From: Rhodoferax sp.
GTDB taxonomy: Bacteria > Pseudomonadota > Gammaproteobacteria > Burkholderiales > Burkholderiaceae_C
Assembly (NCBI RefSeq): GCF_010365055.1
Contig: NZ_JAAFHA010000009.1
Span: 1-64,000 of the forward strand
DNA length: 64,000 bases
Direction of reading: 5' to 3'
Part shown: in pieces, positions 32,852-59,365 of the stretch
Numbering within the stretch: position 1 is the stretch's first letter
Layout of the letters: every line of letters begins with the position of its first letter
Program-made: the position numbers and the translations under genes
The notes under the pieces: generated by a model
What the model saw: the letters and a program-made list of their open reading frames with translations, nothing else
Told to the model about the DNA's origin: nothing
Database searches by the model: none

Positions 32852-33499
32852 ATGAGTGAGCTGCCCATGCCTCGTGGCGCGGAGTCTCTGGCTCGACATT
32901 CAGATGTTGCTGCTGCAAGCCCGAGCCAGGAAGCCATTTTCGTCGAAGCGCTGATCAGCTCCCGGCAAAATATCCTGCCCCGGCGCCTGAGCGAGCCCGG
33001 CCCGTCGGCGGCACAAATCGAGCAATTGTTTCGTGCCGCCGCTGCCGCGCCCGACCATGGCCAGTTGCGGCCGTGGCGCTTTGTGTTGGTGCCGGCCGGC
33101 AAACGCGCTGAGCTGGCTGAAGTGTTTGCACAGGCGTTGCTGGATCGCGACGCCAGCGCCACCACCGAACAAATCGAGTCGGCGCGCGAAAAAGCGCATC
33201 GTGCCCCGTGGCTGGCGCTGGTTGTGGCGTGCCTGGGTCCGCGTGACCCCGATATTCCGATGTTGGAGCGCATGGTCTCGGTGGGCTGCGCTGTGCAAAA
33301 CATGTTGCTCAGCGCCCACAGCATGGCGTTTGGTGCCGGTCTGACGAGCGGGCAGGCCATGTCTTCACCGCATATGCGCAGCCTGTTTCAACTGCAGACG
33401 GGCGAAGAAGCGGTGTGTTTCATCAACGTGGGCACGGCGTCCAAACGCAAAGCGCCGCGCCTCCGTCCGGATCCAACTGACTTTGTGACCAGCTTGTAA
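32852..33499 (+). CDS. Nitroreductase-family flavoprotein
   Basis: A 215-residue protein with the nitroreductase FMN-binding pattern: SSRQNILPRRLSEPG near residue 37, AAAAAPDHGQLRPWRF, and a C-terminal GLTSGQAMSSPH region. It resembles the short single-domain YdjA type. Such enzymes use FMN and NAD(P)H to reduce quinones or nitro compounds; the substrate here is unknown. It reads away from the sigma factor gene with a 144-base shared promoter region. Confidence 0.85.
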   Translation: MSELPMPRGAESLARHSDVAAASPSQEAIFVEALISSRQNILPRRLSEPGPSAAQIEQLFRAAAAAPDHGQLRPWRFVLVPAGKRAELAEVFAQALLDRDASATTEQIESAREKAHRAPWLALVVACLGPRDPDIPMLERMVSVGCAVQNMLLSAHSMAFGAGLTSGQAMSSPHMRSLFQLQTGEEAVCFINVGTASKRKAPRLRPDPTDFVTSL

Positions 33500-33580: not shown

Positions 33581-33594
33581 TATTCGAATGAATA
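33581..33594. promoter_or_regulatory. Candidate ArsR-type operator upstream of the four-cysteine regulator
   Basis: TATTCGAATGAATA contains the perfect palindrome ATTCGAAT and overlaps a TATATT that could be a -10 element. It lies about 30 bases before the regulator start, where autoregulation would be expected. Persulfide-sensing ArsR proteins are known to bind sites with ATTC and GAAT halves, so the fit is suggestive only. Confidence 0.4.
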
Positions 33595-33624
33595 GAACGA
33601 AGAGACCACCCTTTCCGCGCACCC

Positions 33625-33969
33625 ATGACAATACCTGAAGAACATGCCATTCCCTCCGATCTCGATCGACCCGACGAGGTGTTTGAGCTGGCCGCCGAGT
33701 TGTTTCGGGTCATGTCGGCACCGATGCGCCTGAAGATCATCAGCTGTCTGTGCGACGGCGAGAAGAACGTGAGTTACCTGCTCAGCAAAATCGGCACCAC
33801 CCAGCCCAATATGTCGCAACACCTGAACACGCTGTATAAAAACGGGGTGCTCGGCAAACGCCGTGACGGTGTGCAAATCTATTACCGCATCACCGATGAG
33901 CGGATACCGGCGCTCTGCCGCGCGGTCTGCACCAAGATCGAGATTGAGGGTCACTTCAAGCCGGCCTGA
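33625..33969 (+). CDS. ArsR/SmtB-family regulator with four cysteines, possible sulfur-species sensor
   Basis: A 114-residue winged-helix regulator with recognition region TTQPNMSQHLNTLYKNGVL. Cysteines lie at residues 41 and 43 in ISCLCDGEKNVS and at 98 and 102 in ALCRAVCTKI. The first group is in helix 2 and the second in the last helix, the same general layout as the two persulfide-sensing cysteines of SqrR/BigR proteins. Because a sulfur-related respiratory gene cluster follows, sulfide or polysulfide sensing is a reasonable inference; arsenite or another metal is the alternative. Confidence 0.82.
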   Translation: MTIPEEHAIPSDLDRPDEVFELAAELFRVMSAPMRLKIISCLCDGEKNVSYLLSKIGTTQPNMSQHLNTLYKNGVLGKRRDGVQIYYRITDERIPALCRAVCTKIEIEGHFKPA

Positions 33970-34131
33970 TCGGTATCGCCCAATAGCCGTCAAGCGGTTG
34001 CATGCAGGCCACCACCTGTCTGCTGGCGCAATCGAGTCACTTCATTTTTTTTGATTTACGCATTTCATTGTTGCTAACAGATAGCCGATTCCGCGAATAG
34101 GTGCGAGCCTCCATAAGCACATACCGATACA

Positions 34132-34145
34132 TTGATCTACATCAG
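34132..34145 (+). promoter_or_regulatory. FNR/Anr-type binding site upstream of the octaheme cytochrome gene
   Basis: TTGAT-CTAC-ATCAG matches the FNR consensus TTGAT-N4-ATCAA at nine of ten fixed positions. It is followed at the right distance for a class II activated promoter by a TATTAA/TAGTAT -10 region near 34168-34176. This predicts induction of the cluster when oxygen is low. The rest of the 271-base gap after the regulator shows no gene. Confidence 0.65.
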
Positions 34146-34240
34146 AACTTTACGCAGGCTTAATCACTAGTATTAACCCTATAGTGTTGCCAGTTCGCCG
34201 TCGCGGCTGGGCACTACCGCTTGTAAAGTAGGAGTTCTTG

Positions 34241-35881
34241 ATGCGTAGTCGATATCTACTGGTTGCAGCCATAGCAGCCATCTTTTTTACTGCGGCAGCG
34301 CCTGCGGCAGCGCCGGCGGCCACTGAAGCGGCGCCGAAAATCGCCTTACCAGGGGATCACGCCCAGGGTTGGACGAACACCACTGCCGACCACAGCAAAT
34401 TTCAGGTGCTGGATCAGGACTTTGCCTCCGGCCAAGCGGTTACCAAGGCCTGCTTGAGCTGCCACACCGAGGCGTCCAAGCAGATCCACAAGACGACGCA
34501 CTGGAAGTGGGAATACAAAGACCCCGCAACCGGTCAGCTGTTGGGCAAGAAAAACGTCGTCAACAACTTCTGCACCTCCGTTCGTACCAATGAAGCCGCC
34601 TGTGCCAGCTGCCATATCGGCATGGGCATGGTCGACGACAAGTTTGACTTTAGCTCCGAGGTCAATGTCGACTGCCTGGTCTGCCACGACAACACGCAAA
34701 AATACACCAAACCCGGTGGTTTTGGCGGCGCACCGGTGGCCAAGGACACGGAATACCCGCCCGGCTCGGGCAAGATCGTTCGTGGTACCAATCTCAAGGA
34801 AATTGCCCAGAAGGTCGGCAAGACCACGCGCGACACCTGCGGCGGCTGCCACTTCAAGGGCGGCGGCGGTGATGGCGTCAAGCACGGTGACCTCGACAGT
34901 TCGCTGAGCATGCCCAGCAAAGAGCTCGACGTGCACATGGACGCCGAGGGCCTGAACTTCAGCTGCACCACCTGCCACAAGACCGACGGTCACGACGTGT
35001 CGGGCAGCCGCTACGCGCCCACCGCCAAGGACAAAGGTCCCGCCCATATCCGCGGCGAGGCCGACAAAACGAAGGCCGTCACTTGCCAGGAATGCCACGG
35101 ACAAGCACCGCACAAAGTCGTCAAGCTCAACGAGCACACGGCCAAGATCGCCTGCCAGACTTGCCACATTCCGGCCTTTGCCCGTGGCGGCGTCCCGACC
35201 AAGATGAGCTGGGACTGGTCCACGGCCGGCAAACTCGGCCCGGACGGCAAGTTCCAGACCCTGCGCGACGAAAACGACTACGACACCTACATGACGATCA
35301 AGGGTGACTTCAAGTGGGCCGAAAACGTCACGCCCGAGTACATCTGGATGAACGGCGTCAACAAGTACACCTTGATTACCGACAAGCTTGAAAAGGCCGA
35401 CCAGCCCATCAAGATCAACAACTATGAAGGTAGCGCCACCGATGGCAAGTCGATGATCTGGCCGATCAAGTTGTTCACCGGCAAGCAGCAGTATGACCCG
35501 GTCAACAAGACGCTGGTTATCACCCACCTCGCGGGCAATGACGACACTGCTTACTGGAAAAACCTGAATTGGGAGAAGGCGGTCACCGAAGGCATGACCA
35601 AAGGCGGCGTCAAGTTCTCTGGCAAGGTCGACTTCATCGAAACCCAGAGCATGTGGCCCACCACCCACATGGTGGCGCCCAAGGAAAAAGCGCTGGGCTG
35701 CGTGGAATGCCATGCCAGCAAGGGCCGGCTCGACAAGATCGACGGCGTCTACATGCCAGGTCGCACTCGTGATCACGCCCGCTGGCTTGAAATCGGTGGC
35801 TGGCTCGTTGCCGCCCTGGTCTTGCTCGGTGTGCTGGGCCACGGCCTGATCCGCATCGTCGCGAACAAACGCAATCGTTAA
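34241..35881 (+). CDS. Octaheme c-type cytochrome of the tetrathionate-reductase-like family
   Basis: A 546-residue secreted cytochrome with eight CXXCH heme sites starting at residues 71, 121, 145, 200, 242, 282, 305 and 487. A signal sequence is at the N-terminus and one membrane helix (about 517-537) at the C-terminus anchors it to the inner membrane. Layout matches the Shewanella octaheme tetrathionate reductase family, whose members reduce tetrathionate and some nitrogen compounds in vitro. The physiological substrate is not established. The ATG at 34241 has an AGGAG site. The next gene, a cytochrome b, probably feeds it quinol electrons. Confidence 0.88.
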   Translation: MRSRYLLVAAIAAIFFTAAAPAAAPAATEAAPKIALPGDHAQGWTNTTADHSKFQVLDQDFASGQAVTKACLSCHTEASKQIHKTTHWKWEYKDPATGQLLGKKNVVNNFCTSVRTNEAACASCHIGMGMVDDKFDFSSEVNVDCLVCHDNTQKYTKPGGFGGAPVAKDTEYPPGSGKIVRGTNLKEIAQKVGKTTRDTCGGCHFKGGGGDGVKHGDLDSSLSMPSKELDVHMDAEGLNFSCTTCHKTDGHDVSGSRYAPTAKDKGPAHIRGEADKTKAVTCQECHGQAPHKVVKLNEHTAKIACQTCHIPAFARGGVPTKMSWDWSTAGKLGPDGKFQTLRDENDYDTYMTIKGDFKWAENVTPEYIWMNGVNKYTLITDKLEKADQPIKINNYEGSATDGKSMIWPIKLFTGKQQYDPVNKTLVITHLAGNDDTAYWKNLNWEKAVTEGMTKGGVKFSGKVDFIETQSMWPTTHMVAPKEKALGCVECHASKGRLDKIDGVYMPGRTRDHARWLEIGGWLVAALVLLGVLGHGLIRIVANKRNR

Positions 35882-35895
35882 TCAGGAGAACCTTC

Positions 35896-36522
35896 ATGTC
35901 ACGCGTCTATCTCTTCAAACCCTTTGAGCGTTTCTGGCACTGGTGCCAGGCAGCACTGATCATTTTCATGCTGCTGACCGGCTTCGAGGTGCACGGCACG
36001 TATTCCATCTTTGGCTTCGGGAAAGCGGTGGACTACCACACCATCGCCGCCTGGACCCTTGTGGGTCTGTGGATCTTTGCGATTTTCTGGCACATCGTCA
36101 GCGGCGAGTGGCGCCATTACATCCCGACCACACACAACATCGTGGCCGTGGCCAACTACTATTCGTCGGGCATTTTCAAGGATGAACCGCATCCGTTCCG
36201 CCCTAGCGTGAGCAACAAGCACAACCCGCTGCAACGGCTGACCTATCTGGCGGTGCTGACCCTGCTTAGCCCCATGATCTGGATCTCCGGCTGGCTCTAC
36301 CTGTTCTACTCGAGCTGGGCGGCTTGGGGCCTGACCAGCCTGCAGCTGCAGTGGGTCGCCACGGTGCATACGCTGGGCGCCTTCCTGATGCTGGCGTTCC
36401 TGATCTCGCACCTGTACCTGGCAACCACCGGCCACAACCTCACCTCGCAGGTCAAGGCCATGATCACCGGCTGGGAGGATCTTGGCCCGGATGAAGAGCC
36501 AACGCCAGGCAAACGGCACTAA
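35896..36522 (+). CDS. b561-type cytochrome b, quinol-oxidising subunit
   Basis: A 208-residue protein with four membrane helices and the histidines expected for two b hemes: FWHWCQAALI in helix 1, FWHIVSGEW after helix 2, and HTLGAFLML plus ISHLYLATTGH in helix 4. It resembles the cytochrome b subunits of hydrogenases and thiosulfate reductases, which pass electrons from menaquinol or ubiquinol to a periplasmic partner. It starts 14 bases after the octaheme cytochrome gene. Confidence 0.9.
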   Translation: MSRVYLFKPFERFWHWCQAALIIFMLLTGFEVHGTYSIFGFGKAVDYHTIAAWTLVGLWIFAIFWHIVSGEWRHYIPTTHNIVAVANYYSSGIFKDEPHPFRPSVSNKHNPLQRLTYLAVLTLLSPMIWISGWLYLFYSSWAAWGLTSLQLQWVATVHTLGAFLMLAFLISHLYLATTGHNLTSQVKAMITGWEDLGPDEEPTPGKRH

Positions 36523-36567
36523 CGCCGGCAAACCGCATTCAACTTTCGCAACCTTCTGGAGAATCTC

Positions 36568-38349
36568 GTGAACAAGACGTTTAAGAAAAAAGTGCTCGTG
36601 ACCTTGTTGGCCACCCTTTGGCTGCCGCTGGTGGCCAGTGCGGCGGATGCCGACTTGATGAAAAAGATCGATGACCTGTCGCGCGAGCTGCAGGCATTGA
36701 AGGGTCAGGTCACTGCCAATGAGCAAAAAGCGGCCCAGGCGCAGCCCCAAGCCCAGCCCCAGGCGACCGAAGTGGCCGAGCTCAAGCGCCAACTGGGCAA
36801 GCTTGAAGACAAGTCGCTGAGCAAGTGGCTGAGCGTGGGCGGTGATTACCGTTTCCGCATCGACAGCCTGCAAGGCGAGAGCAAGCCTTTTATGGACGTC
36901 AATAAATTCTTTTCCCTAGCAAGTTCGCCATACAGCAGCAGTGGCTTGCCCAATGCAACCGCAGCAATGATGCCCCAACTTGCTGCGATGATTAACGGCG
37001 TGACAACCTATGAACAGGCAGTACCAACTGCGGCTGGATTGAATGCCATGCTTGGAGGCATGTTGAATCCTAATTCTTTAGAGTTTAACCCGGTTTTGGC
37101 CGGGCATGCTGGGGCAGCGTCTATTCCCGCCTACAAGCCCAAGAACACCGCCCTCTACAGCAGCCGCTTCGGTCTGGACCTGGGGGCCAAGGCCACGCAG
37201 GACATCAGCGTCAACGCGCATCTGAACATGTACAAGGTCTTTGGCTCGCAAAATGAAGGCTCGATCACCAATGCCGGCAGCGCACCCTTCTTTGCCGACC
37301 GCGTGGGTGTTTTTGACGGCACGCTGGGGCATGTACCCTCCAGCAGCTACCTCAATGTCGACCGCGTTTACGCCACCTGGAGCAATATCGCCGACGAGCC
37401 GATCTGGTTGTCGGTCGGACGGCGCCCGTCCACCGGCGGCGCTCCGAGCAATCTGCGTGACAACCGGCCCAATCCGGGCAACGGCGGCACACCTTCCATG
37501 TTGGTGGACTACGCCTTTGACGGCATGACCATCGGCTACGCGCCCGACATCGACGGCTTTGCCGGCGCTTACGCCAAGATCTGCTACGGCCGCGGTTTGG
37601 AGACCGGCTTTACCGACTTCAAGGGCAACTCGCTGAAAGACACCGACATGCTCGGCGTGGCGATTATTCCAATCGACACCGACCCGCTGCGCGTCTGGTT
37701 GCAGTGGAACCGTGGCATGAACATCTTTGATGCGCCGGCCATGAGCAACACCTACTTTGGTGACACCGTGGCCAAGACCAACCTGGGCGATATCGACTGG
37801 TTCGGCATCGGCTTCATGAGCACCTTCAAGAACATCGGCCCGGGCAAGCTCAATGTCTTTGGTGATCTGGGCGTGAGCAAAACCCATCCGAACCAGAACG
37901 TCTCGGCGCAGTTCGGCTTCCAGGGCTTGATGACGGGTTCCTTCTTCAACCCCGAAGCACCGACCAGCAAGACCGGCACGTCGATCGCGCTGGGCATGCG
38001 CTATGACTTGCCATCGAACTCCAAGTTCGGCCTTGAGTACAACCATGGTTCCAAGAACTGGATCACCTTTGCGCCGGCTGCGGACGACATGTGGACCGCC
38101 AAGGCCGGCACGCGCGGCGATGTGTATGAAGCCTACTTTATTCAGGAACTCGATCAAAAACCGATCTCGTCCTTCTTCAGCAAGGCATTCTTCCGCCTCG
38201 GTGTGCAATATTACAAATTTGACTACACTGGCAGCAACAACTGGGTCGGTGCCCCGGTGGCAATCGGTGACGTCAACGGCCAGATGATGACCACGACACC
38301 ACTGGAAAACGCCACCAACCTGTACGCCACCTTCGAGGTCAAATTCTGA
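36568..38349 (+). CDS. DUF3373-type outer-membrane beta-barrel protein
   Basis: A 593-residue protein starting at a GTG with a TGGAGA site. A signal peptide ends near LPLVASA, then comes a coiled coil (about residues 28-85, DLMKKIDDLSRELQALKGQV) and a large barrel that begins LSVGGDYRFRIDSLQG and ends TFEVKF. This is the pattern of DUF3373 proteins, which I recall beside octaheme cytochromes. It may let substrate or product cross the outer membrane. An AT-richer block at about 36900-37100 interrupts the GC-rich gene. Confidence 0.82.
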   Translation: MNKTFKKKVLVTLLATLWLPLVASAADADLMKKIDDLSRELQALKGQVTANEQKAAQAQPQAQPQATEVAELKRQLGKLEDKSLSKWLSVGGDYRFRIDSLQGESKPFMDVNKFFSLASSPYSSSGLPNATAAMMPQLAAMINGVTTYEQAVPTAAGLNAMLGGMLNPNSLEFNPVLAGHAGAASIPAYKPKNTALYSSRFGLDLGAKATQDISVNAHLNMYKVFGSQNEGSITNAGSAPFFADRVGVFDGTLGHVPSSSYLNVDRVYATWSNIADEPIWLSVGRRPSTGGAPSNLRDNRPNPGNGGTPSMLVDYAFDGMTIGYAPDIDGFAGAYAKICYGRGLETGFTDFKGNSLKDTDMLGVAIIPIDTDPLRVWLQWNRGMNIFDAPAMSNTYFGDTVAKTNLGDIDWFGIGFMSTFKNIGPGKLNVFGDLGVSKTHPNQNVSAQFGFQGLMTGSFFNPEAPTSKTGTSIALGMRYDLPSNSKFGLEYNHGSKNWITFAPAADDMWTAKAGTRGDVYEAYFIQELDQKPISSFFSKAFFRLGVQYYKFDYTGSNNWVGAPVAIGDVNGQMMTTTPLENATNLYATFEVKF

Positions 38350-38351
38350 TC

Positions 38352-38375
38352 TGTATGACTTGTATGACTTGTATT
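38352..38375 (+). repeat. Short tandem repeat after the DUF3373 gene
   Basis: Two full and one partial copy of a 9-base unit, TGTATGACT, directly follow the stop codon. A TATATAAG and an AT-rich run up to 38441 follow, which could be a separate promoter for the small secreted protein gene. Confidence 0.5.
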
Positions 38376-38441
38376 TAGCCAATACGCCTTCATATATAAG
38401 TTGTTAGTAATTTATTAATACATTAAATAGAGGTATCCCAA

Positions 38442-38762
38442 ATGAACAGCAAACTTTCTGCAACCCTTATTTCCGTGGCCCTGGGTCTTTCAAGCTTGGC
38501 CTTTGTCGGCAGCGCTGCCGCCGAAGAAGGCAAGATGGTCGGTCCGATCACCAAGATCACGCTGGCTGCCGACGGAAAATCAGCCACGGCCATCCTCAAG
38601 GACGCCAAGGCCGGCACACCCGTTACCATCACCATCACCGACGAGCTGACCTTGGATAAATTCAAGGACAAGCGCATCGTCGAAGGCGACGAGATCCGTG
38701 CCCGCTTTGAGAAGGACGGCAAGAATAGCTCCAAGTCCTTCAAGAAGACAGCCGGCTGCTAA
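38442..38762 (+). CDS. Small secreted beta-rich protein of unknown function
   Basis: A 106-residue protein with a signal peptide ending near VGSAAA. The mature part of about 80 residues is beta-rich and lysine-rich: KMVGPITKITLAADGKSATA, then TPVTITITDELTLDKFKDK and VEGDEIRARFEKDG. It ends in a single cysteine, TAGC. It looks like a small OB- or SH3-like domain but I do not recognise the family. It lies inside the sulfur cluster, so it probably acts with the periplasmic proteins there. Confidence 0.75.
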   Translation: MNSKLSATLISVALGLSSLAFVGSAAAEEGKMVGPITKITLAADGKSATAILKDAKAGTPVTITITDELTLDKFKDKRIVEGDEIRARFEKDGKNSSKSFKKTAGC

Positions 38763-38772
38763 GCCAGCACCG

Positions 38773-38809
38773 CCACCCCATCGTCAATCGGCCCGGCCGC
38801 ATGGGGTGG
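38773..38809 (+). other. Intercistronic hairpin
   Basis: CCACCCCAT and ATGGGGTGG form a perfect 9-bp stem around a GC-rich 19-base loop, between the small secreted protein and the rhodanese gene. There is no T-run, so it is more likely an mRNA-stabilising or attenuating hairpin than a terminator. Confidence 0.5.
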
Positions 38810-38852
38810 TAATGCCGGGATAACGTTCATCTCACACTGAAGGAGTTCCGTC

Positions 38853-39914
38853 ATGAAACCTATGATTTTGGCAGCCGCACTGGTTGCAACTGCGCTCTCG
38901 ACCTCAATGGCCTGGGCGGCCACTGCGTCAGAGCAGAAGATGGAAGTCGACGAAGTTGCCAATGAGCAAATGGTGTCGTACTACGAGGGCGGCCTGATTG
39001 GCAAAAGCGTCTGGCTCGTCGACAGTCGCCCCGTCGGGAAATTCATCGGGGGTCACATCCCGGGGGCTGTGAGCCTGCCGCTGGACATGTTAAAAAAAGA
39101 TACCGCAAGCGCCGAGAAACTGGGCATTCCTAAAACCGGTAAAGTCATTTTCTACTGCGCAGGCCGAGAGTGCACACTGTCGGTCGACTCGGCTGCAATT
39201 TTCAGGAAGATGGGTTACGCTGATGCCTGGGTTTACCGCAATGGCGTGCCGGGCTGGAGCCAAAAAGCGCAGCCTCTGCTGGCCGAAGAAGCTCTGCTCA
39301 AAAAGGGCAACGTGGTGCTGATCGACACGGCTCCCGGCAAAGACAGCATCGTGACGACGTCCAACCAGCTGGTTCAGCTCTCTCTCAGTGATCTCCAGGG
39401 TGACAAAGGCGAGATGGCGCTGGGCGCACTGTCCAAGAACGCGCCCTTGGTCGTGATTGACCGCGGGGACATTGCTGCGGTGAACGCCGCGCTGGAAAAT
39501 CTGCGCGAACGTGATTTCCGCCGGTTGGCTTACCTCCCCTTGAGCGCCTGGAAAGGCGCGCTCGCCCCAGCGCCCGCGCTCACCGCGTTGAGCTGGGCAC
39601 CGGTCTACGGGCCAGGCCAGATCGCTCCCAAAGCCTTTGAAGAAGCCGTCGCTGCGGGCAAGTTCATCCTCGATGTGCGTCCGGCGGCAGACTTTGCACG
39701 CGGCCATTTCAAGGGCGCGGTGAACCTGCCGATTGAAGAGATGGAAAAGGACTACGCCAAGATACCGAAGGACGTGCCGGTGTTTGTAAGTTGCGCCTCA
39801 GGTGCGAAGAGCCAAAAAACTTTTGACATCCTCGGACGCAAGGGCTACGCCAATGTGTCGTACCTGGATGCTGAAATTGCCTGCAAGGGCGAGCTCTGCA
39901 CCATCAAGGAATGA
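38853..39914 (+). CDS. Secreted multi-rhodanese sulfurtransferase
   Basis: A 353-residue protein with a signal peptide ending near SMAWA. The first rhodanese domain (about 36-138) has VDSRPVGKFIGGHIPGA and the active-site loop CAGRECTLS with Cys102. A middle region (about 142-240) has rhodanese-like length but no catalytic cysteine. The third (about 250-345) has LDVRPAADFARGHFKGA and CASGAKSQ with Cys314, and is followed by a C-terminal pair, Cys344 and Cys349. Rhodaneses carry sulfane sulfur as a cysteine persulfide. It is coupled by ATGA to the next rhodanese gene. Confidence 0.87.
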   Translation: MKPMILAAALVATALSTSMAWAATASEQKMEVDEVANEQMVSYYEGGLIGKSVWLVDSRPVGKFIGGHIPGAVSLPLDMLKKDTASAEKLGIPKTGKVIFYCAGRECTLSVDSAAIFRKMGYADAWVYRNGVPGWSQKAQPLLAEEALLKKGNVVLIDTAPGKDSIVTTSNQLVQLSLSDLQGDKGEMALGALSKNAPLVVIDRGDIAAVNAALENLRERDFRRLAYLPLSAWKGALAPAPALTALSWAPVYGPGQIAPKAFEEAVAAGKFILDVRPAADFARGHFKGAVNLPIEEMEKDYAKIPKDVPVFVSCASGAKSQKTFDILGRKGYANVSYLDAEIACKGELCTIKE

Positions 39915-40492
39915 GCCGACTGATTGTCTTGGCGCTGGTGGGCGCGGCCTGGGGTCTCTGCGCCCAGGCCGAAGACAATCAGCCGCTGCGCATTACCAAG
40001 CTGAGCCATGAGTTCGTGGTTCAGACCCCTGATGGGCCGCTTGTGATCACACGAGCCAAACGCGCGGGTAGCGTTACCAAGGGTTTTATCCAGCCCTTGG
40101 TGCCGCAGCCGGGCGTGACACCGGTCACCGAGATTGACGTTCTGCACGCACTCAACGATCCGTCGACCATGGTCATTGACATGCGCGACGAAGATGAGCC
40201 CTTGGGCCCCACCATCCCCAACAGCTACCATATTCCCTACAACGAGCTTGAAGACCGCATGGCTGAACTGGGTTGCCAGCAACGCGGCAAAAACCAATGG
40301 GATTGCACAAGCGCGTTCAAGATTGTTGCCTTTTGCCATGGCCCGATGTGCGTTCAGAGTCCTGCCGGCATTGCCAGCCTGGTGCGCATGGGCTTTCCGG
40401 TCAACAAGATTTCGTACTATCGCGGCGGCATGATGGATTGGCAGGGCTTGGGTCTGACCACCGCCTCGAGCAGTCGCCCAACGACTCGGTAA
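39911..40492 (+). CDS. Secreted single-domain rhodanese-like protein
   Basis: A 193-residue protein with a signal peptide ending near GLCAQA. The rhodanese domain (about 72-180) has VIDMRDEDEPLGPTIPNSYH and an active loop, CHGPMCVQS, with Cys142 and Cys147, much like the first domain of the preceding protein (CAGRECTLS). Its first codon overlaps the stop of the upstream rhodanese gene. It probably passes sulfane sulfur between periplasmic partners. Confidence 0.85.
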   Translation: MSRLIVLALVGAAWGLCAQAEDNQPLRITKLSHEFVVQTPDGPLVITRAKRAGSVTKGFIQPLVPQPGVTPVTEIDVLHALNDPSTMVIDMRDEDEPLGPTIPNSYHIPYNELEDRMAELGCQQRGKNQWDCTSAFKIVAFCHGPMCVQSPAGIASLVRMGFPVNKISYYRGGMMDWQGLGLTTASSSRPTTR

Positions 40493-40516
40493 TGTCAAAA
40501 ACACCTGGAAGTTACT

Positions 40517-41038
40517 ATGCGCAGAGTATTTCTCGCCTGGCTGTTCGTTGCCACAAGCGCATGGGCCGGAGCGGATGCGCCCTCGAAATTTGACGGTGCA
40601 GCGCTCGGGGCACAACGAGCGGTCTACCAATTCAATTACCAGACGCCTGAAGATCTGGTGCAGGGGCTTGGGTACATCAACAACCACCTGAAAGCGTTGA
40701 AAGAATTTGGCGATTCTGCCAACTCGCATCTGGTGGTCGTGGCCCATGGCAATGAGTTGCACATGCTGTCGCGCTTGAACCATGCCGCCTACCCGGATAT
40801 TTACGATGAATTGAAGTCGCTTTCGGATCAGGGGGTCCAGTTTCGGGTGTGCCGCAACGCGGCCAACTTCAGGGGCTACAAAACCGAAGATTTTTACGAT
40901 GTGGTCACCGTGGTCCCGGCCGCGATGACGGAGCTGGCAAAGTGGCAAGGCAAAGGCTATGCCTATGTGTCGGGCAACGTGATTCAAAGAACCAAACGCG
41001 CAGCGTTGGGGCCATCGCCGGCACAAAGCAAAAATTGA
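40517..41038 (+). CDS. Secreted DsrE/DsrF-like protein
   Basis: A 173-residue protein with a signal peptide ending near WLFVATSAWA. The mature part has the DsrE-like fold pattern: RAVYQFNYQTPEDLVQGLGY, SHLVVVAHGNELHML, and GVQFRVCRNAA with the conserved Cys112 at the position used for persulfide transfer in DsrE/TusD proteins. Most DsrE proteins are cytoplasmic; this one is exported. It starts 24 bases after the second rhodanese gene with a GGAAG site and is the last gene of the cluster. Confidence 0.83.
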   Translation: MRRVFLAWLFVATSAWAGADAPSKFDGAALGAQRAVYQFNYQTPEDLVQGLGYINNHLKALKEFGDSANSHLVVVAHGNELHMLSRLNHAAYPDIYDELKSLSDQGVQFRVCRNAANFRGYKTEDFYDVVTVVPAAMTELAKWQGKGYAYVSGNVIQRTKRAALGPSPAQSKN

Positions 41039-41214: not shown

Positions 41215-41916
41215 TCAGGCCGATGCAGGTTTGCGCAGCAGATTGACGCGCATGGGGCGCACAAAGTGGGCGCCGTCTACGCTCATGTGCGGCTCAAAGC
41301 GCGCACGCACCGCCTGCAAAGTGGTGGCATCAAGGCGGTGTGTGACATAGGTCACGCCGATCATGCGACGCTCGAACTCCGCAAAGTCGCTGTAGTGCAC
41401 CGGCATTTCAAACAGGGTCTCGCTGACTTGCTCCCAAGCGCCCGAGCGCACGGCTGCCTGCACAGCGCGCTGCGCCGCGGCACGCACCTGCTCCTCGTCA
41501 TTGAGCAGGCGCATGACCTCGTTGAGCGCGCCGGCAAAAACCGGCTCTGAGACATAAAGCAGACCGCCAGGTCGCAGCACGCGATGCACTTCCGACAAGG
41601 CCTGGGCCATTTGGTCCAAAGGAACGTGGTGCAGTGACTTCAGCATTAGCGCCAGGTCGAAGGTCTGCGCCGGGAACGGAATGGCCTGTGCCCCGGCGGG
41701 CACAAATTGCAGACGCTCCATTGGGTTGAGCAGGTTCTTGACGTTCTGGCGCTCGTCCACTTCCAGTGCCGTGATCTCGCAGCCGGGGCAGCGCGCCAGC
41801 AGCTTGCGCGACAACTCTGCGGCGCCACACCCGAGCTCGATGATCCGCGGCTGTTGATCCAGGTCGACCAGCGATTGCAGCAGGTCCAATTCGTCGCTGA
41901 TCTGTAAGGTACTCAT
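41215..41916 (-). CDS. SAM-dependent class I methyltransferase
   Basis: A 233-residue methyltransferase with motif I IIELGCGAAELSRKLL near residue 26, ALEVDE as the acidic ribose-binding segment, and LALMLKSLHHVPLDQM as motif IV. HRVLRPGGLLYVSEP is typical of the Methyltransf_11 type. Substrate unknown. The ATG at 41916 (MSTLQISDEL) has a GGAAAG site. It lies downstream of mlaC on the same strand, 48 bases away. Confidence 0.85.
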   Translation of the reverse strand: MSTLQISDELDLLQSLVDLDQQPRIIELGCGAAELSRKLLARCPGCEITALEVDERQNVKNLLNPMERLQFVPAGAQAIPFPAQTFDLALMLKSLHHVPLDQMAQALSEVHRVLRPGGLLYVSEPVFAGALNEVMRLLNDEEQVRAAAQRAVQAAVRSGAWEQVSETLFEMPVHYSDFAEFERRMIGVTYVTHRLDATTLQAVRARFEPHMSVDGAHFVRPMRVNLLRKPASA

Positions 41917-41964
41917 CTGGTCTTTCCAATTAGGGGGTTCACGTCCGGGCACGAAGCATACACG

Positions 41965-42603
41965 TCAGCCTTTGCTGGCGTTGCTCTTGTTGCGGTCGGC
42001 CAGGGTGGCAATCAAACCGTCAACGCCTTTGGTGTTGACTTCTTGCGCGAACTGGCTGCGGTAGGTTTCTACCAGCCAGACGCCCATCACGTTCAGGTTG
42101 TAAATCTTCCAGCCGGCGCCGTCGCCGCTGGTCTTTTCCAGCCGGTAATCAAGCTGCACCGGGTCGCCCCGGCCCTGGATTTCGGTGCGAACCACCACCT
42201 CGGTGTCTTGTGGCGTGGCGCGCAGGGGCTTGACCACCACCTTCAGATCAGCAGCCTGGGCGACGGCACCCGCATAGGTGCGCACCAGTAAAGTTTTGAA
42301 TTCTTCCTGCAAGCGCTTCTGTTGCTCGGGGCTGGCTTGTCGCCACGCCGGGCCGACCGCAGACGCGGTCATGCGCTTGAAGTCCATGTGCGGCATGACC
42401 GTGGCATCCACCAGAGCGACGATGTTTGCCACATCACCCGTGCGGACGGACGGATTGGCCTTGATGCTGACCAGCACCTCGGTGGACAGCCGGTTGATCA
42501 AGGCATTGGCCGCTTCGTCTGCGGCTTGCGCCGACACCCCCAGTAAACTGGACGTACCCAGCAACAACAAAGTGAGCCAGCGATTGAATGAACGACATTT
42601 CAT
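41965..42603 (-). CDS. MlaC/Ttg2D-family periplasmic phospholipid-binding protein
   Basis: A 212-residue secreted protein with a signal peptide ending near LGVSAQA and family signatures PHMDFKRMTASAVGPAWRQA and EEFKTLLVRTYAGAV, plus YNLNVMGVWLVETYRSQF. MlaC shuttles phospholipids between the outer-membrane MlaA and the inner-membrane MlaFEDB transporter. No other mla gene is in this window, so this is an orphan copy. It may serve a different role or act with genes elsewhere. Confidence 0.88.
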   Translation of the reverse strand: MKCRSFNRWLTLLLLGTSSLLGVSAQAADEAANALINRLSTEVLVSIKANPSVRTGDVANIVALVDATVMPHMDFKRMTASAVGPAWRQASPEQQKRLQEEFKTLLVRTYAGAVAQAADLKVVVKPLRATPQDTEVVVRTEIQGRGDPVQLDYRLEKTSGDGAGWKIYNLNVMGVWLVETYRSQFAQEVNTKGVDGLIATLADRNKSNASKG

Positions 42604-42685: not shown

Positions 42686-44044
42686 TCAGGGCTGTTCCAG
42701 CTTCTTAAGCTTGCGGTAAAGCGAGCGCTGGCTGATGCCCAGCTTTTCCGCCAGCCCAGCCCGATTGCCCTGGTGCGCGGCCATCAGTTGCCGCAGCGCC
42801 GACTGTTCGATTCGTTTGAGCGTACCGGGTTTCAAGGCAACGGTGGTGTTGTCGCTGCAATCAGTGTCATGACCCGTTGGCACTGGCTGACTGTGGGGGT
42901 GCATGAATGCCGGGCGCCGGCCAGACAGCAGGGCTTGCTGCACATGCGTGACCAATATCGTGTTGCCATCGCACAGCAGCGCGCTACGTTCCAGCAAGTT
43001 GCGCAATTCCCGGACATTGCCGGGGAAGCGTTGGGCTTGCAGCAGGCGCAAGGCGGCTTCAGTCACCACCAATGGGCGCTGTGGCGCCACGCGCGCGAGC
43101 AGGGCGGTGACCAGCAGTTCAATATCTTCCGGACGCTCGTGCAATGCGGGCAGATGGATAGGGAAGGTGCTCAGGCGGTAGTACAAATCCTCTCGGAATG
43201 TTCCGGCAGACACCATTTTGTCGAGGTCGCGGTGGGTGGCTGACACCACTCGGATGTCGGCGTGTCGCAACTCGGTGCTGCCAACACGGCGGTAGGTGCC
43301 GGTTTCCAGGAGGCGCAGCAGTTTGACTTGCATCGGCAGCGCAATATCGCCGATCTCGTCGAGAAACAAAGTGCCACCGCTGGCGGCCTCCACCAGCCCG
43401 CCGCGCGCCGCATTGGCACCGGTAAAGGCACCGCGCTCGTGGCCAAACAGTTCGGACTCAAACAGGTTTTCTGGCAGGCTGGAACAATCCACCGCCACCA
43501 GGGCGTGGCGCGCACGCGGGCTGGCCTGATGCACCGCCCCCGCTACCAGCTCTTTGCCGGTGCCCGACTCGCCCAGCAGCAAGACGGTGGCCAGGGACGG
43601 CGCCACACGCGCGACCAGCGCCAACATTTTCTGAAACGCGGGCGCGCGGCCAATCAGGTTCTGGCCGCGACTTGTGCCCTGCGCCATGGGCAGCGGTTCC
43701 ATCTTCTCAACAAAAAAGGCTTGTTCGCCATCGGCATTGAGCAAAGGCGTCAGTTCAATATTGACGTATTCCTCGCCATTGGGCGTGTGGTGCAGGTGCA
43801 GCACGCGCTCGCGTTGGCCTGATTCGCGTGACTTGACCAGTGGGCACGATTCGCCTGCCTGGTCGCAAGGCAGACCAAAGTGATGGGACACCTCGTAGCA
43901 CGTCCGGCCCACCACGCTACGCTCCGGGCTGAACTGACGCCGGTAGGCGGCGTTGGCCGCGAGGATGCGGTATTGCGTGTCGAACAGGATGTGGGGCTCG
44001 CTCAGTCCTTCCAGATAGGACATCAGCTCTGGCAATGGCTTCAC
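42686..44044 (-). CDS. Sigma-54-dependent activator with a Cys-rich PAS domain, next to the cyd operon
   Basis: A 452-residue enhancer-binding protein. The N-terminal PAS domain has [12 protein letters not shown] and GESCPL, giving Cys49, Cys60 and Cys67, a likely redox or metal site. The AAA+ domain has Walker A GESGTGKE, the sigma-54 contact loop GAFTGA and Walker [10 protein letters not shown]. The C-terminal Fis-type helix-turn-helix is [20 protein letters not shown]. There is no receiver domain, so it senses its signal directly. The start is a GTG with an AAGGA site. It is divergent from cydPABX and probably controls it. Confidence 0.9.
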
Positions 44045-44238: not shown

Positions 44239-44418
44239 ATGAAACCCCTGGACAAATCCCTCGTTAGAAAACTGGCTGTCGTATTGCTCATCAAGCTGGC
44301 GGTGCTGGCGGCGCTGTGGTGGGTTTTTGTGCGCGACCAGCGGGTGGCGGTCGATAGCGAAGGCGTTGCTGCCCAGTTTTTGCAGAGCGCCCCCCAGATT
44401 AAAGGAGTAAGGCAATGA
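44239..44418 (+). CDS. cydP: CydP, small protein of the cytochrome bd operon
   Basis: A 59-residue protein with one membrane helix, KLAVVLLIKLAVLAALWWVF, and the pattern MKPLDKSLVRKL and DQRVAVD, which I recognise as the CydP type found before cydA in betaproteobacteria. It probably assists assembly or stability of the oxidase. Its TGA overlaps the cydA ATG as ATGA, so the two are cotranslated. The ribosome binding site is weak. Confidence 0.75.
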   Translation: MKPLDKSLVRKLAVVLLIKLAVLAALWWVFVRDQRVAVDSEGVAAQFLQSAPQIKGVRQ

Positions 44419-45989
44419 TTTCTGAACAGCTAGTTGATCTGTCACGGTTGCAGTTCGCCGCTACGGCCATGTACCACTTTTTGTTTGTACCGTTGACCGT
44501 TGGCATGGTGTGGTTGCTGCTCATCATGGAGAGCGTCTATGTGATGACTGGCAACGTGATCTGGAAGGACATGACGCGTTTCTGGGGCAAGCTGTTTGGC
44601 ATCAACTTTGCACTGGGTATCACCACCGGCATCACGCTGGAATTCCAGTTTGGTACCAACTGGGCCTATTACTCGCACTACGTGGGCGATATTTTTGGTG
44701 CGCCGCTGGCCATTGAGGGCTTGATGGCCTTCTTCCTCGAGTCGACGATGATCGGACTGTTCTTCTTTGGCTGGGACCGACTGTCCAAGAACCAGCACTT
44801 GCTGGTGACGGTCCTCCTGGCGATCGGCACCAACCTCAGCGCGCTGTGGATATTGATTGCCAACGGCTGGATGCAAAACCCGGTTGGCTCCGAGTTCAGC
44901 TACCTGACCATGCGCATGGAAATGGTTGACTTCTGGGCGGTGGTGTTCAACCCCGACGCGCAGGCCAAGTTCGTGCACACGGTGTCGGCGGGCTATGTGA
45001 CCGGCGCGATGTTTGTGTTGTCCATTTCTAGCTGGTATCTTCTCAAGAACCGTGATGTGGAGTTTGCCAAGCGCAGCTTCAGGGTGGCGGCGGCATTCGG
45101 CCTGGCTTCAGCGGCGAGCGTGATCGTGCTGGGTGACGAGTCGGGTTACACCGTGGGTGAAGCCCAGCAAACCAAGCTGGCCGCCATGGAAGCCATGTGG
45201 GAGACCAAGCCCGCACCTGCAGGTCTGACGCTGGTGGCGAGCATCAACGAGGCAGAGCAAAAGAATGACTGGGAAATTGAGATTCCCTGGGTGATGGGCC
45301 TGATTGGCACGCGCTCCGTCACCAAAGAGATTCCCGGCATTCACGACATCAAGGCCAAGAACCGCGAGCGCATCGGCAGCGGCATTGTGGCGGTGACCGC
45401 GCTCGAATCCTTGCGTGCCAACCGCGACGATGCCGCGGCCAAACAGGTGTTTGAAAGGCACAAAGCGGATCTGGGCTTTGGCTTGTTGCTGAAAAAATAT
45501 GTCGTGGATGTGCGCCAGGCCAGCCCAGAGATGATCGAGCAAGCCGTGAACGACACCGTGCCGCGTGTAACCCCCTTGTTCTGGGCATTTCGCGTCATGG
45601 TCGGGCTGGGGTTTGCCATGCTCCTGCTGTTTGGACTGGCGTTCTGGAGCACCGTCAAGAGCGCCTGCATGCAAAAGCCCTGGTTGTTGAAATCGGCGCT
45701 GTGGATGCTGCCCGCCCCTTGGATTGCCTGCGAGCTCGGCTGGTTTGTCGCCGAGTATGGCCGCCAGCCCTGGACGATTTACGGTGTGCTGCCGACCCAC
45801 CTGTCGGTGTCCACGTTGAGTGTCAACAGCCTGTATGGCTCGCTGGCGGGTTTCATCGGGTTTTACTCGGTACTGCTGGTCGTCGAGATGTTCTTGATGG
45901 TGAAGTTTGCACGTATCGGTCCCGCCAGCCTGGGAACAGGTCGCTATCAGAGTGAGAGCGCGGCCAACCTCACATCCGCACACGTTTAA
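44415..45989 (+). CDS. cydA: CydA, cytochrome bd quinol oxidase subunit I
   Basis: A 524-residue membrane protein. The heme ligand histidine lies in RLQFAATAMYHFLFVPL near residue 21, and GRW-type and Q-loop regions follow. The Q-loop (about residues 240-390, with GEAQQTKLAAMEAMWETKPA and LGFGLLLKKY) is of the long E. coli type. With CydB it oxidises quinol and reduces oxygen to water at very low oxygen, and is also known to resist sulfide and nitric oxide. An AAGGAG site lies inside cydP. Confidence 0.96.
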   Translation: MISEQLVDLSRLQFAATAMYHFLFVPLTVGMVWLLLIMESVYVMTGNVIWKDMTRFWGKLFGINFALGITTGITLEFQFGTNWAYYSHYVGDIFGAPLAIEGLMAFFLESTMIGLFFFGWDRLSKNQHLLVTVLLAIGTNLSALWILIANGWMQNPVGSEFSYLTMRMEMVDFWAVVFNPDAQAKFVHTVSAGYVTGAMFVLSISSWYLLKNRDVEFAKRSFRVAAAFGLASAASVIVLGDESGYTVGEAQQTKLAAMEAMWETKPAPAGLTLVASINEAEQKNDWEIEIPWVMGLIGTRSVTKEIPGIHDIKAKNRERIGSGIVAVTALESLRANRDDAAAKQVFERHKADLGFGLLLKKYVVDVRQASPEMIEQAVNDTVPRVTPLFWAFRVMVGLGFAMLLLFGLAFWSTVKSACMQKPWLLKSALWMLPAPWIACELGWFVAEYGRQPWTIYGVLPTHLSVSTLSVNSLYGSLAGFIGFYSVLLVVEMFLMVKFARIGPASLGTGRYQSESAANLTSAHV

Positions 45990-57268: not shown

Positions 57269-59365
57269 TCAACACCGCTTTCCATCGGCAACCACCTGCA
57301 CCAGACAATCGTAAAACGTCGGTCCGCCACCCAGGTCGGTCAGGTTCTGGCTGGTGAGCTGGTTCACATTGGTACCGCTCAGCCCCAGTTTGCGCCACCA
57401 CACGCCCAGGCCATTGACCACGCCGGGGCGCGCACGGCTGGAGACTTTGGCCTTGCAGCGGTACTCGCCACGGGCATTGAAGACACGCACGATGTCGCCG
57501 CTCTGGATGGCACGCGCGGCGGCATCAGCCGCGTGCATTTCCATCACGGGCTCGCACTCCATCTCCTGCAAGCTCGGCACATTGACGAACGTGGAATTGA
57601 GGAAATTGCGCGCCGGCGGCGAGATCATGGCCAACGGGTACTGCGTTGAGGTGTTGAACGCTTCGTAGTTGGGTACATGGGATGGCAGGCCGTCCAGGCC
57701 CAGCGCGGCCAGGCGTGCGCTGAAGAACTCGCATTGGCCCGACGGCGTCGGGAAATTGCCGTGGGCAAAGGGCGCCTCGGGTGTTCTCAAGGTCGCAAAG
57801 CCCTTTGCCAGCAACTCGTCAAAATCAACGGCGTCGCCATAGGCCATGCGGCACAGCGCCGCGTCGTCATCTGCAAAGCAGGGGTCGGTAAAGCCCATGT
57901 GCCCGGCCAGCTCGCGAAATATCTGCGTGTTCGGTTTGGCCTCGCCCAGCGGTGCAATCGCCGGGCGATTGAGCAGCGCATCGGTGTGGCCGTAGCTCGA
58001 ATGCACATCCCAATGCTCCAGTTGTGTGGTGGCGGGCAGGAGGTAGTCGGCGTAGTCGGCGGTGTCGGTCTGAAAGTGCTCCAGCACCACGGTGAACAGG
58101 TCGTCGCGGCTCAAGCCTTGCACCACCTTGCCCGACTCGGGCGCGATGGCCGCCGGGTTGCTGTTGTAAACAATCAGCGCCTCAATGGCCGGGCCGAAAA
58201 CCGCACTGGCCGGGCGTAAGAGCTCATCACCAAGGGTGCTCATGTTGAGGGTGCGCGGCGTTTTGCCGGCCAGCAAATCGGGCCGTTGCAGCGCCGCCTT
58301 TTGCACCGGGAATGCACCCGAGCTTGACAGCAGCACGCCGCCAGCGCGGTGGCGCCAGGCACCAATGAGGGCGGGCAGGCAGGCGATCAAGCGCACCGCA
58401 TTGCCGCCACCATGGACGCGTTGCATGCCATAGTTCATTCGGATCGCCGCCGGTGCGCCGCCTGCCACGCAGGCGCCGTAGTCGCGGGCCAGAGCGCGAA
58501 CTTGTTCAGGGGCGATGCCGCACACCAGCGCGGCCCGCTCAGGTGCCCATTGCAGCGCGCGCTCACGCAGCAGTTCCCAGCCCAGCGTGTACTGCGCCAG
58601 GTAGTCGTGATCGAGCCAGTCGTTGGTGATCAGCTCATGCATCAGCGCCAGCGCCAGTGCGCCGTCGGTGCCGGGCAGCAGGGCGATGTGTTCGTGGCAC
58701 TTGTCGGCGGTCTCCGACTTGCGCGGATCGATGCAGACCAGCTTGGCACCGTTGCGTTTGGCAATTTGCGCATAGCGCCAGAAGTGCAGGTTGCTGGCAA
58801 TCGAGTTGCTGCCCCAGATCAGGATCAGCCTGGACTCGGCAAAGAATTCCACCCGCATGCCCACCTTGCCGCCCAGTGTCTGGGTCAAGCCCTCGCCGCC
58901 CGCAGAAGAACAGATGGTGCGGTCCAGCCGGGAGGCCCCCAGCTTATGCAAGAAGCGCGCTGACATGCTCTCGCCCTGCACCAGCCCCATGGTGCCGGCG
59001 TAGCTGTAGGGCAGGATGGCTTGCGCCGCATCTTCGCTGCGGCTGGCAATGGCTTGCAGTCGGGCGGCGATGTCTTGCAGCGCTGCGCCCCAGCTCACGC
59101 GCTCAAACTGACCCGCGCCCTTGGGGCCGACGCGTTTGAGCGGATGCAGCAGGCGCTCCGGGTGGTAGGTGCGCTCGGTGTAGCGCGACACCTTGGTGCA
59201 CAAGGCGCCATCGGTGTGCGGATGGGCCGGGTTGCCCTGCACCTTGATGGCGATGCCGCCCGCGACGGTGGTCAGCATCGAGCAGGTGTCGGGACAGTCG
59301 TGCGGGCAGGCCCCCAGCACCTGGGTCGGGGTGGCGTCCGAGGGTAGGGATGAGTTTGAATTCAT
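57269..59365 (-). CDS. Molybdopterin-dependent oxidoreductase with one [4Fe-4S] cluster
   Basis: A 698-residue protein of the DMSO-reductase superfamily. The N-terminal cluster motif is ACPHDCPDTC with Cys20, Cys24, Cys28 and Cys56, followed by IWGSNSIASNLHFWRYA and a C-terminal molydopterin dinucleotide domain (RPGVVNGLGVWWRK). There is no Tat signal, so it is cytoplasmic. No electron-transfer partner or chaperone gene is beside it. The substrate cannot be told. Starts at 59365 and 59383 are both possible. Confidence 0.87.
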   Translation of the reverse strand: MNSNSSLPSDATPTQVLGACPHDCPDTCSMLTTVAGGIAIKVQGNPAHPHTDGALCTKVSRYTERTYHPERLLHPLKRVGPKGAGQFERVSWGAALQDIAARLQAIASRSEDAAQAILPYSYAGTMGLVQGESMSARFLHKLGASRLDRTICSSAGGEGLTQTLGGKVGMRVEFFAESRLILIWGSNSIASNLHFWRYAQIAKRNGAKLVCIDPRKSETADKCHEHIALLPGTDGALALALMHELITNDWLDHDYLAQYTLGWELLRERALQWAPERAALVCGIAPEQVRALARDYGACVAGGAPAAIRMNYGMQRVHGGGNAVRLIACLPALIGAWRHRAGGVLLSSSGAFPVQKAALQRPDLLAGKTPRTLNMSTLGDELLRPASAVFGPAIEALIVYNSNPAAIAPESGKVVQGLSRDDLFTVVLEHFQTDTADYADYLLPATTQLEHWDVHSSYGHTDALLNRPAIAPLGEAKPNTQIFRELAGHMGFTDPCFADDDAALCRMAYGDAVDFDELLAKGFATLRTPEAPFAHGNFPTPSGQCEFFSARLAALGLDGLPSHVPNYEAFNTSTQYPLAMISPPARNFLNSTFVNVPSLQEMECEPVMEMHAADAAARAIQSGDIVRVFNARGEYRCKAKVSSRARPGVVNGLGVWWRKLGLSGTNVNQLTSQNLTDLGGGPTFYDCLVQVVADGKRC

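Follow-up and report, generated by a model that had tools for sequence, protein, structure and literature searches.

A cysteine-tailed protein as candidate sulfur carrier beside an octaheme cytochrome of the OTR family in Rhodoferax sp.

INTRODUCTION

We analysed a cluster of genes around a cytochrome c of the octaheme tetrathionate reductase (OTR) family in Rhodoferax sp. (GCF_010365055.1, contig NZ_JAAFHA010000009.1). The window is the whole stretch of DNA analysed, 64,000 nt (positions 1-64,000, forward strand). The part of the cluster that matters most is one that an initial annotation of this DNA had not singled out: a predicted secreted protein of 106 amino acids (aa) that ends in cysteine. 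Our tentative reading is that OTR would mediate electron exchange of the quinone pool with sulfur bound to the cysteine of a carrier, with rhodaneses loading this carrier; we infer the carrier role and the direction from protein sequences and gene neighbourhoods.

Several described systems resemble parts of this arrangement. In Wolinella succinogenes, the periplasmic rhodanese Sud hands sulfane sulfur to the respiratory reductase Psr, a molybdoenzyme; we know of no cysteine-tailed carrier in that system. SoxY is a known carrier with a cysteine arm. OTR of Shewanella oneidensis (1sp3, TIGR04315) is cited, in the excerpts of the literature consulted, as reducing tetrathionate, nitrite and hydroxylamine. 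The window enzyme is homologous to it over nearly the whole chain, with all eight CXXCH heme motifs and the VKHGD lysine (position 153 of 1sp3 by alignment count) kept; it differs in having a C-terminal membrane helix and, alongside, a cytochrome b, rhodaneses, a barrel and a cysteine-tailed protein. In lucinid symbionts, genes for SoxY-S3 and SoxZ lie beside otr, and roles apart from thiosulfate oxidation have been proposed for SoxY-S3, the excerpts of that paper giving no reaction between carrier and OTR (PMC11237559). There, too, the gene of a cysteine-arm carrier adjoins that of OTR, and two loci related to ours combine multi-rhodanese, OTR, SoxY and SoxZ; the window locus itself is without SoxY, and its candidate carrier, the 106-aa protein, has no match to SoxY.

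Rhodanese genes also accompany an octaheme cytochrome of the SirA/Otr group in clusters 5-T and 4 of Dethiobacter alkaliphilus, and the octaheme of AHT1 was raised in thiosulfate-grown cells; neither DUF3373 nor a small protein is mentioned in the excerpted text (PMC10376724). The YTD cluster of sulfur disproportionators similarly places a DsrE-family gene with sulfur transfer genes, but the excerpts define it by yedE, tusA and dsrE (PMC12998232), and neither yedE nor tusA was among the family hits of the window cluster. Further background was drawn from excerpts of PMC4827864, PMC7887784, PMC13188914 and PMC4484225.

The extHIJKLMNOPQS cluster of Geobacter has a matching architecture, with a rhodanese (ExtH), a porin (ExtI), a protein of 104 aa (ExtJ), a cytochrome b and multiheme cytochromes in one cluster; by the excerpted description, which is all that ExtI and ExtJ were compared by, ExtI weakly resembles phosphate-selective porins and the cytochromes are others (PMC5877670). 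The same excerpts report that transformation of selenite and tellurite is reduced when extI is mutated. That the Rhodoferax cluster is a comparable module for selenite or tellurite nevertheless appears very improbable: no ext model turned up when the window proteins were scanned for families (E 0.01; whether models for ExtH, ExtI and ExtJ exist was unchecked), and in other groups the neighbours are sulfur-type enzymes.

RESULTS

A 106-aa protein with an invariant C-terminal cysteine

The cluster comprises eight open frames on the + strand (33625-41038). As the initial annotation had stated, the sulfur and redox genes run in one direction, with an ArsR regulator carrying four cysteines ahead of them and an FNR-type site in front; frames and family scores bear this out. 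The features are, in order:

33625..33969, +, ArsR/SmtB-family regulator with four cysteines, candidate sensor of thiol/persulfide or metal (HTH_5, 34.9 bits)
34132..34145, +, FNR-type box TTGATCTACATCAG, a motif that recurs at related loci
34241..35881, +, OTR-family octaheme cytochrome c (TIGR04315), with a signal-like N-terminus and a C-terminal membrane helix, both by eye
35896..36522, +, cytochrome b561-type membrane subunit, probable quinone partner of OTR (PF01292, 93 bits)
36568..38349, +, DUF3373 protein, probable outer-membrane beta-barrel with N-terminal coiled coil (PF11853, 499 bits)
38442..38762, +, predicted secreted 106-aa protein ending in KKTAGC, candidate sulfur carrier with a C-terminal cysteine arm
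38853..39914, +, predicted exported multi-rhodanese (PF00581, 110.9 bits)
39911..40492, +, predicted exported single rhodanese with CHGPMC (33.8 bits)
40517..41038, +, predicted exported DsrE-family protein with a cysteine in FRVCRN (PF02635, 51.3 bits)

Export of OTR and of the last five products was judged by eye from signal-peptide-like N-termini, without a predictor.

The 106-aa protein gave no Pfam or NCBIfam family at E 0.01, SoxY (PF13501) included. A terminal Gly-Cys was found in all 20 aligned members, which come from two phyla, and this cysteine is the sole invariant one (the ends in L138 and G021 lay outside the inspection and that in L038 is cut; L and G numbers are our handles for loci and genomes). 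Its gene, wherever present, almost always adjoins that of a DUF3373 protein; for the DUF3373 protein of the window, the PF11853 score lies far above the gathering cut-off of 26.1 bits. In the class-wide sample, DUF3373 was found in 4 of 369 genomes and the 106-aa protein in 5 of 339, one match being weak; the four genomes with strong matches are the same four that have DUF3373. Among Desulfobacterota the corresponding counts are 33 of 198 and 9 of 196, and the eight strong matches to the 106-aa protein all adjoin DUF3373. Plasmid records searched for both proteins gave zero matches, and none of 186 pattern matches to the 106-aa protein in viral contigs was confirmed.

Six of the eight Desulfobacterota places with both proteins (L148, L149, L151, L152, L153 and L155) also hold an OTR-like cytochrome with 7-8 CXXCH motifs, three of these cytochromes scoring 154-175 bits to TIGR04315, below its cut-off of 375. 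The remaining two hold a multi-rhodanese and a molybdoenzyme: that of L147, of 734 aa, reaches 552 bits against PhsA (cut-off 694) and precedes a [4Fe-4S] protein, and that of L150, by eye a relative of it, is followed by an NrfD-type protein. Another Desulfobacterota copy (L179) adjoins an OTR-like cytochrome but has no DUF3373 next to it. The genes for the 106-aa and DUF3373 proteins also occur in one gammaproteobacterial family, either beside dsrJ-, dsrP- and cobB/dsrN-like genes (L136; dsrJ and dsrP under their cut-offs) or near genes weakly resembling YedE/TsuA transporters (L137 and L138).

Other cysteine-tailed proteins beside related OTRs

Related OTR loci that lack the 106-aa protein carry a cytochrome c whose penultimate residue is a cysteine. 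This was so in 37 out of 37 proteins scoring at least 190 bits (36 from the near-relative loci, and L104), and the two kinds of protein were never found in one context. The core OTR clade has 57 rows (support 99); its 51 uncut contexts all have the 106-aa protein or the cysteine-tailed cytochrome c, with the tail visible in 50; six rows in which the contig ends before the place of the partner were set aside (L039, L046, L055, L068, L074 and L076). Two further proteins occur at this place in smaller groups. In 6/6 rows of one OTR group, the gene immediately upstream of OTR encodes a DUF302 protein whose Gly-rich tail terminates in GC. In 2/2 loci of another, SoxY and SoxZ come immediately downstream and a multi-rhodanese is also present; like the cytochrome c and DUF302 replacements, SoxY of these sister loci has a cysteine at or near its C-terminus. 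As background, these loci hold 1259 called genes whose products have at least 150 aa, and 48 of them, several of the carriers among them, encode a cysteine at one of the last two positions (genes in fetched loci were called as longest frames, by which small genes may go uncalled). Our literature search, which left most subscription journals outside, returned no paper that connects OTR with any cysteine-tailed carrier but SoxY and none tying DUF302 to thiosulfate and a C-terminal cysteine.

Five Desulfobacterota relatives of the cytochrome c, at 34-43 bits, keep the tail cysteine. Four of them stand beside OTR (493-546 bits with our custom profile) in DUF3373 contexts other than the eight above (L162, L163, L165 and L170), these loci having been selected via DUF3373; in L162 and L170 the frames of the cytochrome relatives are without CXXCH. 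Weaker relatives at 16-18 bits have no tail cysteine (L174, L175 and L177), L175 having a distant OTR relative 8 kb off. In a structure model of the cytochrome c the tail is a coil after the last helix with a pLDDT of about 80, which neither supports nor opposes a carrier role.

In a first OTR tree of 109 rows, the carrier-type contexts, Desulfobacterota ones apart, fell in one clade of 60 rows (support 93). A prediction was fixed at this point, before 19 OTR contexts from the family of the window itself were taken as a held-out set (the second tree omits L096, L130, L131, L132, L151, L153, L163 and L175). Five of the 19 were placed in the core clade, and each of these has the 106-aa protein or the cysteine-tailed cytochrome. 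Three lie outside a wider clade (76 rows, support 88, inner forks open) and are without a cysteine-tailed neighbour.

Proposed mechanism and direction of electron flow

Under the reading proposed above, sulfur anions would enter through the DUF3373 protein and, by way of the rhodaneses, exchange sulfane sulfur with the terminal cysteine of the 106-aa protein. The latter would act as a swinging-arm carrier like SoxY while having no detectable homology to it. The loaded carrier would dock at the catalytic heme of OTR, where the S-S bond may be broken with quinol electrons delivered through cytochrome b, a step that would free thiosulfate or sulfide and regenerate the carrier thiol. DsrE could serve as an optional extra acceptor, and FNR-type control together with a thiol-sensing ArsR would switch the system on at low oxygen in the presence of reactive sulfur. 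A sulfur redox system around OTR and cytochrome b, with an FNR-type box and probably protein-bound sulfane sulfur, is what the initial annotation had proposed, and to that extent its proposal is supported.

A broader proposal, in which we place somewhat less confidence, is that this OTR lineage acts on carrier-bound sulfur and not on free tetrathionate, the carrier slot being filled by four apparently unrelated proteins: the 106-aa protein (...AGC), the cytochrome c (...PASCS), the DUF302 protein (...GGC) and SoxY. The 106-aa protein might then be the first of a new class of periplasmic sulfur carrier that serves multiheme and molybdenum enzymes alike. If so, the true reaction of OTR, whose natural substrate is unsettled, would have escaped assays on free substrates, DUF3373 and the 106-aa family would gain a function, and a second kind of cysteine-arm carrier would stand beside SoxY.

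A number of observations weigh against these proposals. DUF3373 is without the 106-aa protein in 24 of 32 fetched Desulfobacterota contexts (there were 39 match rows, of which six, G594 twice, G501, G495, G459 and G466, were unfetched). A divergent relative of the 106-aa protein in L180 stands beside a pentaheme protein and has no terminal cysteine, and in L173 a cysteine-tailed cytochrome relative lies beside DUF3373 without OTR. The structure model of the 106-aa protein is weak (pLDDT 60.6), although its low pLDDT at residues 101-106 may hint at a flexible tail, and a fold search with it gave nothing at E 0.001 or better, the weak hits, left unused, including several proteins whose names we recognised as OB-fold proteins. 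A lone exported cysteine could also serve dimerisation or metal binding. Most OTRs of other clades are without a cysteine-tailed partner, as are 11 held-out OTRs that form two Burkholderiaceae side lineages of the wider clade, where 0 of 11 have a cysteine-tailed exported neighbour that was judged real (L199, in a side lineage, is cut right after OTR, and the terminal-cysteine frames taken as chance include one of 459 aa at 3.1 kb from the OTR of L199). For these 11 the prediction failed. The pattern therefore holds in every uncut context of the core clade and throughout the groups with DUF302 or SoxY, and is no rule for the wider clade. Finally, ubiquinone, the usual quinone of Betaproteobacteria, would not reduce acceptors at the level of polysulfide, and reduction would therefore need substrates at the level of tetrathionate.

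The initial annotation had also put anaerobic respiration forward as the direction. The evidence points both ways. We place reduction slightly ahead of oxidation, on what the sequences and their contexts suggest: the cited OTR activities and the FNR-type box point that way, as do the PhsA-like and NrfD-type genes that accompany the accessory genes elsewhere. The same parts could run in reverse: OTR would oxidise thiosulfate or sulfide and load it on the cysteine of the carrier, and cytochrome b would feed the quinone pool for respiration by nitrate or a bd oxidase, an arrangement that is possible if, on balance, unlikely. Related loci occur under the genus names Sulfuricella, Sulfurisoma, Sulfuritalea and Sulfurimicrobium, genera known for sulfur oxidation; the two loci with multi-rhodanese, OTR, SoxY and SoxZ and the dsr-like neighbours in L136 are likewise consistent with oxidation. 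The genome encodes a NarG above its cut-off, and a relative of the window's cydA lies near OTR in L195-L198 and L200; in the window, cydA itself starts 8.5 kb from the OTR end. However, the OTR activities cited in the excerpted literature are reductive, and the accessory module also occurs with the PhsA-like and NrfD-type genes of Desulfobacterota.

OTR and its cytochrome b partner

The window OTR belongs to its family by a clear margin (TIGR04315, 618 bits against a cut-off of 375, over profile positions 1-440 of 440), its start being likelier at ATG 34241 than at TTG 34238. Among OTRs no shorter than 450 aa, 105 of 117 show a hydrophobic helix-like segment within the last 60 residues. The cytochrome b stays below the equivalog cut-off of PhsC, the cytochrome b of thiosulfate reductase (114.7 against 204 bits). 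OTR above the family cut-off was found in 29 of the 369 genomes of the class-wide sample, and in the 35 contexts fetched from it (33 above the cut-off and 2 below) cytochrome b adjoins OTR in 30. The pairing of OTR with cytochrome b is widespread.

This pair is the only nearly constant one, which would suit an ordinary tetrathionate reductase that reduces free tetrathionate, as cited for the S. oneidensis enzyme in the excerpts consulted, while rhodaneses and DsrE treat the products and the 106-aa protein stands outside catalysis. We find this improbable, as it leaves the invariant C-terminal cysteine and the cysteine-tailed replacements in sister loci unexplained.

A separate OTR clade (L099, L102, L105, L079, L080, L082 and L084) is accompanied by other multiheme cytochromes, L099 having pentaheme and NapC-type cytochromes beside OTR. 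The VKHGD motif, whose lysine we take to be a heme ligand, is absent from four of these seven members (L079, L080, L082 and L084), and their sequences and contexts suggest that this clade probably catalyses a different reaction. Such neighbours, and the cited reduction of nitrite and hydroxylamine by S. oneidensis OTR, would fit a nitrite or hydroxylamine reductase beside which the sulfur genes of the window are mere neighbours. We give this hardly any credence: the multiheme-context clade is separate in the tree and four of its seven members are without VKHGD, and the neighbours in the window belong to sulfur-transfer families.

Constancy of the rhodaneses and DsrE

PF00581 scores two domains in the multi-rhodanese, and a degenerate middle domain was recognised by eye; in alignment, the first domain has CxGxxC, the middle one is degenerate and the third has a cysteine of the catalytic type. 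The DsrE protein is above the gathering cut-off of PF02635 (22.7 bits). The initial annotation had linked both rhodanese and DsrE genes to the octaheme cytochrome and had proposed a search for their co-occurrence. With a custom profile, a multi-rhodanese was found near OTR in only 3 of 35 class-wide contexts; the count rises to 37 of 66 among near-relative loci and to 38 of 52 rows in the OTR clade of the window. Ten contexts of this clade are long enough to judge (window, L032, L033, L034, L035, L036, L037, L040, L041 and L188), and they hold a multi-rhodanese in 8/10, a single rhodanese in 7/10 and DsrE in 3/10 (window, L032 and a distant DsrE in L036). Therefore, the rhodanese link is real in the lineage and DsrE is optional; the proposed linkage holds for the rhodaneses of the window lineage and fails class-wide, and DsrE, at three of ten contexts, is ruled out as a core part.

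An N-terminal extension with a likeness, by eye, to the 106-aa protein is present in the multi-rhodaneses at L147:10912-12312, L150:11040-12434 and L033:14556-15833, of which two also contain CXXCH. Another observation concerns L179:13982-15670, by eye resembling CoA-disulfide/persulfide reductases and weakly matching the multi-rhodanese profile, which lies near the pair of small protein and multiheme cytochrome.

Regulation

Allowing one mismatch at most, an FNR-like box lies close to the start of OTR in 33 of the 66 related loci, compared with 94 of 3000 random stretches of those loci. The 66 loci are near relatives by design and, because they share ancestry, are not independent for this count. 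Of the 13 contexts of the window clade that could be assessed, 7 have an ArsR gene upstream of OTR. The central cysteine of ArsR and its C-terminal LCxxVC are kept, by alignment, in several near relatives and absent in others. Its score against the BigR equivalog is 63.5 bits (cut-off 155), and one BigR cysteine aligns with a serine, a cysteine being at the next position.

The window also holds, named by eye, a sigma-54-type activator (42686-44044, -) and a gene for cytochrome bd subunit I (44415-45989, +). Relatives of the activator and of cydA are both near OTR in L195-L198 and L200, and activator relatives without cydA occur near OTR in L058, L059, L078, L098 and L190 (439-587 bits) and, more weakly, elsewhere. 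The activator may regulate OTR. A sigma-54 promoter near the OTR start is unsupported (present in 4 of 66 loci, with random stretches giving 354 of 3000).

Genome setting and flanks

The whole genome contains a single match each to OTR, DUF3373 and SoxY, and 16 rhodanese-domain matches, three of them inside the cluster. There are seven molybdopterin matches; pieces of five were scanned and two match PhsA at 146-147 bits (cut-off 694), the pieces being incomplete and whole-protein cut-offs thus not applicable to them. One molybdopterin oxidoreductase piece, at 57905-59155 (-) of the window, is related to the formate dehydrogenase and DmsA/YnfE models.

The cluster is flanked by a nitroreductase gene (32852-33499) and, by eye, by methyltransferase-like (41215-41952) and MlaC-like (41965-42603) genes. 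Since these flanking genes are common to the window, L032 and L035, the cluster appears to occupy a stable site in the window lineage.

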